From: Oceanicaulis sp. MMSF_3324
GTDB lineage: Bacteria; Pseudomonadota; Alphaproteobacteria; Caulobacterales; Maricaulaceae
Length of the DNA stretch: 64,000 nt
Reading direction: 5' to 3'
Assembly: GCF_030733545.1 (NCBI RefSeq)
Contig: NZ_JASHIU010000003.1
Location: 124,001-188,000, forward strand
The notes beneath the pieces were generated by a model. That model worked only from the letters and a program-made list of their open reading frames with translations. It was not told the origin of the DNA and did not search any database. Every line of letters starts with the position of its first letter. Position 1 is the first letter of the stretch. This document shows positions 40,193 through 44,303 of this stretch, piece by piece. The position numbers were made by a program, and so were the translations under genes.

Positions 40193-40227
40193 AAAGCCGC
40201 CTGTTTGTTCAGGCGGCTTTTCGTTTT
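40193..40227 (+). terminator. Intrinsic terminator of rpmG
   Basis: AAAGCCGCCTG pairs with CAGGCGGCTTT around TTTGTT, then TTCGTTTT follows. The pleD stop codon on the other strand lies inside the hairpin, so the element may end both transcripts. Confidence 0.85.
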
Positions 40228-41561
40228 GCCTCGATCACGCGATTGCGCCCGGACCGCTTAGCCTCATAAAGGGCCGTATCCGCACGCTCGATCAACGCCT
40301 CGACCGAATCCTCCAGGAAGGCCTCGGCGACGCCCACGCTCATGGTGACGTTGATGATGTCACCGGTCTCTCTGAGGGTGACCGGCGTGGCGCACACCGC
40401 CAGACGGGCCCGCTCCATGGCGTCGCACGCATCCCGTGCGGTGGTATTGGAAAACACCACCAGGAATTCCTCGCCGCCATAGCGACCTGCGATGTCGATG
40501 GCGCGCAATTGCTCGCTCAGACGCGCACAGATCTCCTTGAGCACCTGGTCACCGGCATTATGCCCCCAGGTGTCGTTGATCCGCTTGAAGTGATCGATAT
40601 CGATCAGCGCAGTCGTCACCGGCTCATGATTGGTCCGAAGACCATCCAGCGCCTGTCGCAGGCGTGAAACGGTGTAGCGGCGGTTGAACAAGCCCGTCAG
40701 TGCATCGCGCACCGACATCTCGAGACTTTCATCCAGCCGATCGCGCAGGGCGTCCGCATAGCGCTTGCGCTTGAGCTGTGTGGCGCTGCGCGCCGATAGT
40801 TCGCCCGGGTCGAGCGGACGTGAAATCACGTCATTCACGCCCAGATCGAGCGCGCGCACCATGGTGCGCTTGTCCATTTCATCCACAACGCCCAGCAGCG
40901 GCACCTGCCGCGTTTCCACATCCGAGCGGATACGCGCACACAGGCGCAGACCGTCAAATCGCGGCGAGCTGAGATCCACGATCACAAGATCGGCGTGACG
41001 CGCCTGGGAAATCGCAATCCGCGGATCGCCATAACCATGCGCATCCAAGGACGCCGGCAAGGCTCGGGCGATCCGGTGAGCCGCCGCCTGATCGGCCGCG
41101 GCGACAACCACGCGCCCATCCCCGTTCGCAGGCTCATAGGGCAACATTTCGACGCCATTGCTTTCGCGCTGGCGCAATTCATCCATCACGCTCGTCAGGC
41201 GCAGCAAGGAGCGTACGCGGGCGAACAGCGCGACATCATCCACCGGCTTGGTGAGAAACTCGTCCGCGCCCGCCTCAAGCCCGCGAATACGGTCCGTGCG
41301 TTCATCAAGCGCAGTCACCATGACCACGGGGATGTGACGGGATTCAGGGTCGGATTTCAGCCGACGGCAGGTCTCGAACCCGTCCATGCCCGGCATCATG
41401 ATGTCGAGCAGGATCACATCCGGCTTTTCGCTTCGGGCAAGGTCCAGACAGGTCGGCCCGTCGGGGGCCATCAGGACGTCGAAATATTCGGCCGTCAGTC
41501 TCGCCTCGAGCAGACGACGGTTCGTTTCGATGTCATCGACGACCAATATGCGCGCGCTCAC
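40209..41561 (-). CDS. pleD: Response regulator diguanylate cyclase PleD
   Basis: The 450-aa protein has the PleD order REC-REC-GGDEF. The first receiver has the phosphoacceptor Asp in VILLDIMMPGMDG (near residue 54). The second is degenerate, with LVIVDLSSPRFDG. The cyclase domain starts DALTGLFNRRYTV and has GRYGGEEFLVVF (near residue 366), preceded by the inhibitory I-site RAID five residues before. It makes cyclic di-GMP and in Caulobacter drives the swarmer-to-stalked change and holdfast output. It lies 12 nt after divK, the same operon order as in Caulobacter. Confidence 0.95.
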   Translation of the reverse strand: MSARILVVDDIETNRRLLEARLTAEYFDVLMAPDGPTCLDLARSEKPDVILLDIMMPGMDGFETCRRLKSDPESRHIPVVMVTALDERTDRIRGLEAGADEFLTKPVDDVALFARVRSLLRLTSVMDELRQRESNGVEMLPYEPANGDGRVVVAAADQAAAHRIARALPASLDAHGYGDPRIAISQARHADLVIVDLSSPRFDGLRLCARIRSDVETRQVPLLGVVDEMDKRTMVRALDLGVNDVISRPLDPGELSARSATQLKRKRYADALRDRLDESLEMSVRDALTGLFNRRYTVSRLRQALDGLRTNHEPVTTALIDIDHFKRINDTWGHNAGDQVLKEICARLSEQLRAIDIAGRYGGEEFLVVFSNTTARDACDAMERARLAVCATPVTLRETGDIINVTMSVGVAEAFLEDSVEALIERADTALYEAKRSGRNRVIEAKRKAA

Positions 41562-41573
41562 CCGTGTCTCCTT

Positions 41574-41939
41574 CTAGTCGAGGAAGTCCCGAACCGTCTT
41601 GATGAAGGATGCGACCGTAATCGGTTTGGACAGGTATCCTTCGCACCCGCCTTCACGGATGCGTTCCTCATCGCCCTTCATGGCGAATGCGGTGACGGCC
41701 ACCACGGGAATGGCCGATAACTCATCATCATTCTTGATCCATTTGGTGACATCCAGACCTGACACTTCAGGCAACTGAATATCCATAAGGATCAGGTCGG
41801 GCCTGTGCTCACGCGCCATATCGAGCGCCTTGAGGCCTTCGCTGGTCTGCACGGTCTCGTAGCCGTGCGCTTCGAGCAGATCACGAAATAATTTCATGTT
41901 CAGCTCGTTGTCTTCAACGATCAGAACTTTTTTGGACAT
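41574..41939 (-). CDS. divK: Single-domain response regulator DivK
   Basis: The 121-aa receiver protein is nearly superimposable on Caulobacter DivK. It starts [18 protein letters not shown], has the phosphoacceptor Asp in [19 protein letters not shown] (near residue 53), and ends with [18 protein letters not shown] and [10 protein letters not shown]. DivK is phosphorylated by PleC/DivJ and controls the CckA-CtrA pathway. ATG 41939 is chosen over 41951 because the family begins at M-S/T-K-K. It heads the divK-pleD operon. No clean CtrA site was found upstream. Confidence 0.95.
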
Positions 41940-42074
41940 GACCTGCAGCATTATAACCGCGCTTTCCCCAATTCGCCCCGCCGTCTGTGCAGCGTGAGCG
42001 TTTTGACCATCCAGAGTGCATTAAACCCCACTTTCCTTAATCAAGAATGAGTCCCCGACTTCGCAGGACGATTA

Positions 42075-42089
42075 GAACAAGATATGAAC
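42075..42089 (+). promoter_or_regulatory. LexA (SOS) box upstream of ROK kinase-dinB
   Basis: GAACAAGATATGAAC is GAAC-N7-GAAC, the reverse complement of the alphaproteobacterial LexA consensus GTTC-N7-GTTC. It is a perfect match, 28 bp before the GTG start of the ROK gene. Confidence 0.8.
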
Positions 42090-42117
42090 GTGTGAAGCGA
42101 GGAAAAAGAGGCGACCC

Positions 42118-43029
42118 GTGTTACGGTTAGGCGTGGATCTCGGCGGCACGAAGATCGAGGCGGCATTGCTGGATGAATACGGCGCCTGTTCCGTGCGCCG
42201 CCGCACCGCGACCCCGGCGGGGTATGAGGAGAAACTGGACGCCATTGCCGACCTCGTCGCCGCTGTGGAAGCCGAAGCCGGACTGACAGCGCCCTTGCCG
42301 GCGGGCATCGGACATCCCGGTTCGATCAACCCCAGAACCGGTCTGATGCGCAACGCCAACTCAACAGCGCTCAACGGTCATCCGCTGGACCAGGACCTCG
42401 CCCGTCGCCTGAACCGCCCTGTCCGCTGCGCCAATGACGCCAATTGTTTCGCCTTGTCCGAAGCGCGCGATGGCGCAGGCGCCGGCGCTCGAAGCGTGTT
42501 TGGCGTGATTGCCGGCACCGGCGTGGGAGGCGGGATCGTGCTGGATGGCGCGCTTGTGCCGGGAGCCGACGGCAATGCAGGCGAATGGGGACATACCGCC
42601 CTGCCCTACATGACACCCCAGGAGCTGGCGATCAGCCCGCCCTGTTACTGTGGCAAGACCAATTGCGTGGAGGCCTGGTGTTCAGGCCCTGCGCTATCGC
42701 GCGATCATGAGCGCCGCACGGGCGAAACCTGCTCGGTCCAGCAAATCGCCCTGGCCGCCAAGACCGGGGATGAGGCCGCTCAACTCAGCCTAGACCAGCA
42801 TGAGGACCGGTTCGCGCGCGCCCTGTCCAATGTCATCAACATTCTCGACCCGGACGTGATCGTTCTGGGCGGAGGGCTGTCCAATCTGGACGGCTTTGCC
42901 GATCGTCTGGCCAAACGCGTGGCGGACTGGGCGTTCACTGATGATCCGATCACTCAGATCCGCACACCGGTCCATGGCGACAGCTCGGGCGTGCGCGGCG
43001 CCGCCTGGTTGTGGGACGGCGCGAATTGA
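42118..43029 (+). CDS. ROK family sugar kinase (fructokinase/Mak-like)
   Basis: The 303-aa protein begins LRLGVDLGGTKIEAALLD, the ATP phosphate-1 loop. Other ROK marks are VIAGTGVGGGIVLDGALV near residue 132 and the zinc/catalytic HTALPYMTP with CYCGKTNCVEAWCSG near residue 180, followed by DPDVIVLGGGLSN near residue 245. It should phosphorylate a hexose, probably fructose or mannose, or an N-acetyl sugar. The start is GTG after GGAAAAAGAGG. It lies directly behind a LexA site and overlaps dinB, so it should be SOS-induced. Confidence 0.9.
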   Translation: MLRLGVDLGGTKIEAALLDEYGACSVRRRTATPAGYEEKLDAIADLVAAVEAEAGLTAPLPAGIGHPGSINPRTGLMRNANSTALNGHPLDQDLARRLNRPVRCANDANCFALSEARDGAGAGARSVFGVIAGTGVGGGIVLDGALVPGADGNAGEWGHTALPYMTPQELAISPPCYCGKTNCVEAWCSGPALSRDHERRTGETCSVQQIALAAKTGDEAAQLSLDQHEDRFARALSNVINILDPDVIVLGGGLSNLDGFADRLAKRVADWAFTDDPITQIRTPVHGDSSGVRGAAWLWDGAN

Positions 43030-44303
43030 CCGCTTCGCCTCGCTCTCAAAGCTATTGCCGAAGCTGCCTCGCCCCGGCGCCGCCAGGGGCGAAATGCCCT
43101 CATTGCGGCCGGGGCCCGGTCCTGGCTCATCCCGAGCTCAACGCGCTCGCCATTGCCCATATCGACTGCGACGCCTTTTTCGCCTCGGTGGAAAAGCGCG
43201 ACAATCCCGCGCTTGAGGACCAGCCGGTGATCATTGGCGGCGGCAAGCGCGGCGTGGTCTCCACGGCCTGCTATGTGGCGCGGCTTTACGGCGTGCGCTC
43301 GGCCATGCCCATGTTCAAGGCGCTCAAGGCGTGCCCGGACGCGGTGGTGGTCCGGCCGCGCATGGAGGTCTATTCCGCAGAAGGCAAGCGCATCCGCGCC
43401 ATGATGGAGGATGTGACCCCTTTGGTGGAGCCGCTCTCCATCGATGAAGCGTTTCTGGATCTGTCCGGCACGGAGAAGCTGCATGGCGCGCCGCCCGCAT
43501 TGACGCTTTTGCGCCTGCAGCGCCGCATCCTGAACGAGGTCGGCGTGACCGTGTCCGTGGGGCTGAGCTTTAACAAGTTTCTCGCCAAGACCGCGTCTGA
43601 TCTTGATAAGCCCAACGGCTTTTCGGTGCTGGGCCGCGCGGATGCCACAGGTTTTCTGGCGCAGATGAAGGTGGGCGATGTCTATGGCGTGGGCCCCGTG
43701 CTGGGCAAGAAGCTGAACGCGGACGGTCTGTACACATTGTCTGACGTGCTCAAGCGCTCTGAAGGCGATCTCGCACGCAAATACGGCGAGTCCGGTCTGC
43801 GGCTCGCCCGCCTGGCCCGGGGCCAGGATGATCGCAAGGTCAGCCCCGAGCGCGAGCGCAAATCCGTCTCAGCCGAAACCACCTTCAATGACGACGTCTC
43901 GGACAAGTCGGTGCTGAAAGATCGGCTGTGGCCGCTTTGCGTGAAGGTCGCCGACCGCATGAAGGCCCAGGGCGTGGCGGGCCGGGTCGTGACGTTGAAG
44001 ATCAAGACCGACAAGTTTCGCACCATCACGCGGCGGCGCACCCTGACCGATCCCGCCCAGCTGGCCGATACGCTGTACCGCACCAGCACCGACATGCTCG
44101 ACAAGGAGCCCGAAGGCGTGCGCTACAGACTGATCGGCGCGGGCTATTCCGTTCTGGAGCCCGCCATTGCCGATGCGGGTGATCTGCTGGACCCCAACGC
44201 GCTCAAGCGCGCCGCCGCCGAGCGCGCCATGGACGCGGCCCGGGCGAAATTCGGAGCTGCGGCCATCATCAAGGGCCGTATGCTCAACAAGGATCGCGAC
44301 TAG
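43026..44303 (+). CDS. dinB: DNA polymerase IV (Y family) with N-terminal zinc motif
   Basis: The 425-aa Y-family polymerase has a short N-terminal extension with CRSC and CPHC (residues 11-14 and 24-27), a likely zinc ribbon. IAHIDCDAFFASVEKRDNPA near residue 43 is motif I with the first metal Asp. PLSIDEAFLDLSG near 139 is motif III with the catalytic Asp-Glu. The helix-hairpin-helix and little-finger domains follow. It performs error-prone bypass of damage. The start is TTG 43026, which overlaps the ROK stop; a GTG at 43011 is the alternative. Confidence 0.93.
   Translation: MTASPRSQSYCRSCLAPAPPGAKCPHCGRGPVLAHPELNALAIAHIDCDAFFASVEKRDNPALEDQPVIIGGGKRGVVSTACYVARLYGVRSAMPMFKALKACPDAVVVRPRMEVYSAEGKRIRAMMEDVTPLVEPLSIDEAFLDLSGTEKLHGAPPALTLLRLQRRILNEVGVTVSVGLSFNKFLAKTASDLDKPNGFSVLGRADATGFLAQMKVGDVYGVGPVLGKKLNADGLYTLSDVLKRSEGDLARKYGESGLRLARLARGQDDRKVSPERERKSVSAETTFNDDVSDKSVLKDRLWPLCVKVADRMKAQGVAGRVVTLKIKTDKFRTITRRRTLTDPAQLADTLYRTSTDMLDKEPEGVRYRLIGAGYSVLEPAIADAGDLLDPNALKRAAAERAMDAARAKFGAAAIIKGRMLNKDRD

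Follow-up and report, generated by a model that had tools for sequence, protein, structure and literature searches.

In E. coli, dinB is the first gene of its operon. This operon, dinB-yafN-yafO-yafP, is SOS-regulated, and dinB is accompanied in it by a toxin-antitoxin pair together with a putative acetyltransferase (PMC9578287). The same source gives the LexA operator of Caulobacter as GTTCN7GTTC, the reverse complement of GAAC-N7-GAAC (PMC9578287). In the 64-kb stretch of DNA analyzed here (the window), we observed a dinB gene that, as in E. coli, lies beside a non-polymerase gene, with LexA control being predicted in this case. Unlike in the E. coli operon, the partner is a ROK-family sugar kinase that comes first, and the predicted LexA box is a direct repeat, the same operator type as in the Caulobacter crescentus LexA regulon. 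The open-licence literature (subscription journals being outside the scope of the search) yielded no paper linking dinB with a ROK kinase or fructokinase, or with divK and pleD, nor one on the SOS response and LexA of Maricaulis. The features of the locus are:

42075..42089, + strand: predicted LexA (SOS) box GAAC-N7-GAAC, an exact match; the form GAACARGATANGAAC precedes 40 of the 46 linked ROK-dinB pairs of the family
42060..42065, + strand: weak candidate -35 element TTCGCA, proposed from a CTT that keeps a constant distance upstream of the box across 30 anchored promoters
42083..42088, + strand: weak candidate -10 element TATGAA, lying within the LexA box and proposed from its 17-bp spacing from the candidate -35
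42118..43029, + strand: ROK sugar kinase gene, Mak/fructokinase-like, GTG start (PF00480, PRK09557, conserved motifs)
43026..44303, + strand: dinB (DNA polymerase IV), likely TTG start, alternative GTG at 43011 (PRK02794, 633.4 bits, above the cut-off of 371; sequence)
41574..41951, - strand: divK-like response regulator gene, divergent neighbor (PF00072), frequently in the same position in relatives
40209..41561, - strand: pleD-like diguanylate cyclase gene (PRK09581, PleD family, 553.9 bits, above the cut-off of 474)

The box, GAACAAGATATGAAC, has the spacer AAGATAT, is without a second zero-mismatch GAAC-N7-GAAC anywhere in the window, and corresponds to the operator form (GTTCN7GTTC or GAACN7GAAC near a promoter) by which members of the LexA regulon of the alphaproteobacterial type are recognized. 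A 28-bp interval separates it from the GTG start of the ROK gene, whose TGA stop shares 4 nt with the likely TTG start of dinB, the alternative in-frame GTG lying upstream of that TTG; a relative (G008) has ATGA at the position of this overlap. The original prediction of an exact box 28 bp before a ROK gene that overlaps dinB is thus confirmed. The ROK gene lies directly before dinB with the divK-pleD pair divergent from it, and the 166-bp gap between divK, whose product we take to be DivK, and ROK contains no DUF3572 or HAD-like gene. A GANTC site (GAGTC) at 42049-42053 in this gap, presumably a possible CcrM site of the divK promoter, recurs in many of the aligned relatives' promoters.

A profile search recovered the Pfam ROK domain in the kinase (PF00480, E=1.5e-74), and the DxGGTK, ND, GH and CxCGxxxCxE motifs are invariant or nearly so across 13 aligned ROK sequences, that of the window included. 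We take the ND motif to hold the catalytic aspartate and the cysteine motif to bind zinc, so that the domain, DxGGTK, catalytic aspartate and zinc-binding cysteines that define the ROK family are all present. The top NCBIfam model is that of the Mak-type fructokinase PRK09557, itself of the ROK family, matched over its whole length at 351.8 bits, which is under the curated cut-off of 443; hence, we do not class the protein as a confirmed fructokinase, its substrate probably being a hexose such as fructose. Across 18 pairs, dN/dS came to 0.17-0.31 for ROK and 0.06-0.25 for dinB, figures that are only rough because dS is frequently above 1. From the motifs and these ratios, the ROK product appears to be a functional enzyme subject to purifying selection. 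In one relative (G007) the ROK frame is interrupted at a run of cytosines, possibly through a sequencing error. The genome of the window also codes for a second, distant ROK paralog (L193, G000:C19:64421-65356), with 43% identity, which is unlinked to dinB and has no box within 250 bp. The DinB protein contains the IMS and IMS_C domains (PF00817 and PF11799). Its N-terminal extension, encoded at 43056-43106, has four cysteines (CRSC...CPHC) resembling a zinc finger, and a similar CxxC is readable at the start of dinB in several relatives.

As the exact core motif occurs 75 times in the genome (2.975 Mb) against 62 times for a reversed control, one or two copies are to be expected in any 64-kb window, and the motif by itself is ordinary and proves nothing; judging the box by motif counts alone was accordingly dropped. 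Of these sites, 73 were read with a simple custom gene caller, 51 of them falling inside predicted coding sequence and 22 between genes. Among the genes behind boxes, the lexA match begins 39 bp behind its own box, GAACATGCATAGAAC, and ssb is preceded by a box of the same type shared with a divergent gene, which we take to be uvrA. A second gene for a protein like the Y-family polymerases (415 aa), scoring far under the Pol IV cut-offs, is preceded at 32 bp by a box of its own, GAACAAAAATAGAAC (L064, G000:C11, 408283-408297). Further boxes precede the gene for a 151-aa protein, in which we presume a resemblance to MmcB, and that for a 101-aa protein, which starts 20 bp behind GAACATAAACGGAAC (L025, G000:C11, box at 163892-163906); neither protein has an NCBIfam match. 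Another box (L080, G000:C19, 102591-102605) lies between a gene for a PA0069-family radical SAM protein and a divergent gene. The product of the latter appears glycosyltransferase-like by eye. A dcm-family DNA cytosine methyltransferase gene, with a provisional start, begins near GAACAAAAGAAGAAC (L026, G000:C11, 199253-199267); its longest open reading frame would overlap the box. Several of the 22 intergenic boxes have behind them a gene with no evident repair role or no called gene, and recA was not among the genes recognized behind the 73 sites. The repair-type targets are those to be expected of a Caulobacter-type LexA operator.

What goes beyond chance is the fixed place of the box before the same operon. 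We searched 119 genomes of the family and found a ROK match (E <= 1e-30) in 47 of them; by coordinates, dinB abuts ROK at 46 of the 48 places, the exceptions being G073 and the above-mentioned paralog, and the aligned gap between the two genes measures 0-39 nt in all 46 linked genomes. The core box lies just upstream in 41 of these 46, with GAACARGATANGAAC in 40 and another spacer in G011. Altogether, GAACARGATANGAAC was found at 43 places in 42 of the 119 genomes, the 40 before linked pairs included, while a control reading of the 15-base pattern gave four matches in the entire set. Its distance to the aligned ROK start is 26-50 bp, or 195 bp in G007 with its broken frame. As for the five linked genomes outside the exact-core count, G054 has one mismatch in the box, G046 has only a one-mismatch look-alike nearer to the gene, G002 and G017 have no box at up to one mismatch upstream of the linked ROK, and the upstream region of G131 was unread. 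One genome lacking ROK, G075, has GAACARGATANGAAC directly before dinB, while ROK is present in all five further genomes drawn from its genus; together with the broken frame in G007, this indicates that ROK is not indispensable to the unit of box and dinB. No DUF3572 or HAD-like gene was seen in the 42 family loci read. The LexA control that the original prediction assigned to the operon is thus supported at the level of sequence, by this phylogenetic footprint and by boxes of the same type before lexA and ssb.

A scan with the sigma-70 consensus found no promoter at the ROK-dinB operon. In the 30 anchored promoters, conservation inside the box is forced, as they were preselected for its presence; nevertheless, a promoter with its -10 element within the box is suggested by the conserved CTT before the box and the spacing of 17 bp to TATGAA. 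Such a placement would explain the conserved spacer.

We then compared loci in which only one of the two partners, the kinase or the box, is present. A box precedes dinB in 15 of the 16 readable ROK-less loci of the family, with its first base 34-79 bp upstream of the aligned start of dinB; its spacer, which takes the form ATAnnnn in 11 of the 15, mostly differs from that of the ROK-bearing group. At L131 (G015), two overlapping boxes precede dinB, GAACATAATAAGAAC, with one GAAC common to both; L144 was too short for reading. In a second family of the order (f2), five of six loci have a box at the start of dinB; since these boxes are placed differently, at the start codon, we do not claim a single origin for all the boxes. 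Compared to the Caulobacter crescentus regulon, 14 loci of the same order from three further families (f3-f5), with or without ROK, have no forward exact box before the first gene of the dinB operon; at L165, a reverse-sense box lies 566 bp before ROK. Searching 80 genomes of the order recovered ROK (E <= 1e-25) in 22, leaving 58 without it at this threshold; ROK adjoins dinB in 18 of the 22 (all but G038, G154, G172 and G182), nine of these being outside the family. At L048 and at G038:C10:31547-38663 the ROK gene is split into two parts that are separated by about 6 kb and lie some 10 kb away from dinB. At 15 ROK loci of the order, nine of them linked to dinB outside the family and six unlinked, with four genomes shared with the f2-f5 locus set, no box with one mismatch or fewer was found in the 250 bp before ROK. 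Thus, all four combinations of ROK and box exist across the family, f2 and f3-f5 loci, and the boxless linked pairs read outside the family, together with the boxed ROK-less relatives, indicate that the box is specific to the lineage and would operate whether or not ROK is present.

The gene pair itself is spread far more widely. At E <= 1e-50, ROK was matched in 169 of 385 alphaproteobacterial genomes, of which we read 69 loci, a non-random sample made up of the best 29 and 40 picked down the matches listed. The dinB gene lies within 250 nt of ROK on the same strand in 36 of the 69, and the two genes were scored as lying together in 37, which span 23 family codes; divK or pleD lies upstream in 47. 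A scan of the forward strand found no exact box within 300 bp of ROK in any of the 69 loci, and none was found on either strand of the whole divK-ROK gap in the 39 loci with divK. In 16 of the 69 loci, from nine family codes, the order is divK, divergent from DUF3572 (PF12096), a HAD-like gene, ROK and dinB; the HAD-like protein is so named by eye, one form having no Pfam match and another a sub-threshold NT5C match. Among the best 80 of at least 570 relatives at named loci, dinB abuts ROK in 11, all labeled alphaproteobacterial, and a forward box lies within 200 bp in two, both Maricaulis; in none of the enterobacterial relatives among these 80 is dinB near ROK. ROK and dinB are neighbors in many alphaproteobacteria, and from these comparisons the local addition appears to be the switch and not the kinase.

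In a quick tree of the ROK proteins, a branch with an SH-aLRT value of 95 sets apart the 20 dinB-linked copies sampled from the order, along with two unlinked ones. Over the class as a whole, linked copies are mixed with unlinked ones, and gamma- and betaproteobacterial sequences lie among them; hence, only within the order does the tree support vertical descent of ROK. On a quick divK-pleD tree with long branches, in which the PleD pieces of L150, L165 and L166 were probably mis-picked and L161 and L164 were scored as box-bearing because the box sits at the dinB start, ROK needs six changes and the box seven. In this tree, 23 ROK-bearing rows of the family belong to a group of 24, the exception in it being G075, with L047 lying outside. 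The linkage of ROK and dinB is wider than the box and, by parsimony, would also be older than it, and in the simplest reading of these sequences an old cluster was shortened from the front, ROK was lost several times, and the LexA box was added within the lineage.

These observations bear on how a kinase came to lie behind a LexA box. One suggestion had been that it is a passenger that inherited the promoter of dinB, that is, a recent insertion between an old LexA box and the polymerase gene. The abundance of ROK-less loci in the family with a box before dinB, mostly with another spacer, and the lack of class-wide vertical descent in the ROK tree would accord with this, but the occurrence of the two genes together in about half of the class loci and the grouping of the sampled linked ROKs of the order disfavor it, such that we regard a recent insertion as very improbable and the passenger idea as probably backwards. 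That the box is a chance match devoid of function might be argued from its core being barely commoner than the reversed control, yet this is scarcely credible given the fixed position before the same operon and the rarity of control matches in the family. It is also improbable that ROK serves mainly as an upstream cistron, whose translation would set a low level of DinB by coupling; the close packing of dinB against the end of ROK in every linked genome of the family, down to the 4-nt overlap in the window, speaks for such coupling, but the kinase motifs and dN/dS values point to selection on the protein itself, and many relatives lack ROK altogether.

Rather unlikely, though conceivable, is a metabolic contribution to the damage response, in which the kinase would be induced because phosphorylating sugars is useful under damage, for example by leaving fewer reactive sugars, whose glycation products (N2-dG adducts) are lesions that DinB bypasses. 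Such a role is possible in view of reports that methylglyoxal increases the occupancy of SOS genes, dinB among them, by RNA polymerase in E. coli (PMC3739934) and that DinB bypasses N2-dG adducts (PMC9578287). The conservation of the ROK motifs under purifying selection and the recurrence of the pair across the class, often with a HAD-like gene, are in its favor; against it, no LexA box was seen at the linked pairs read outside the family, relatives devoid of ROK show the box in front of dinB, and G075 retains box and dinB without the kinase. A related and still less likely proposal is that DUF3572-HAD-ROK-dinB constitutes an old alphaproteobacterial module combining detoxification of metabolites, sugar- or nucleotide-derived, with bypass of the adducts that these form in DNA, of which module the window would have a shortened form placed under an SOS switch.

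We instead favor, as the likely account of the locus, a LexA-repressed ROK-dinB operon derived from an older gene pair, in which the box is lineage-specific and the kinase is co-induced as the partner of the polymerase. LexA would bind the box in the gap before the operon, where it may overlap the -10 element, and block transcription; upon DNA damage, RecA would be activated and LexA cleaved, whereupon ROK and DinB would be made together, DinB perhaps in part through translational coupling at the 4-nt overlap. The pair would stem from an older alphaproteobacterial cluster, with divK-pleD divergent from DUF3572, the HAD-like hydrolase, ROK and dinB, whereas the box would be a change within the lineage, shared with ROK-less relatives that have it before dinB. 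Co-induction of the kinase would then follow from its being an old operon partner of dinB, and the arrangement does not need it to have a role in damage tolerance.

This account tells apart two things, namely a widespread pairing of a kinase with a translesion polymerase and a lineage-specific SOS switch. The relatives with or without ROK and with or without the box form a natural two-by-two set for any metabolic contribution to damage tolerance, and the recurring DUF3572-HAD-ROK-dinB order offers a lead to the purpose of DinB in the alphaproteobacteria.
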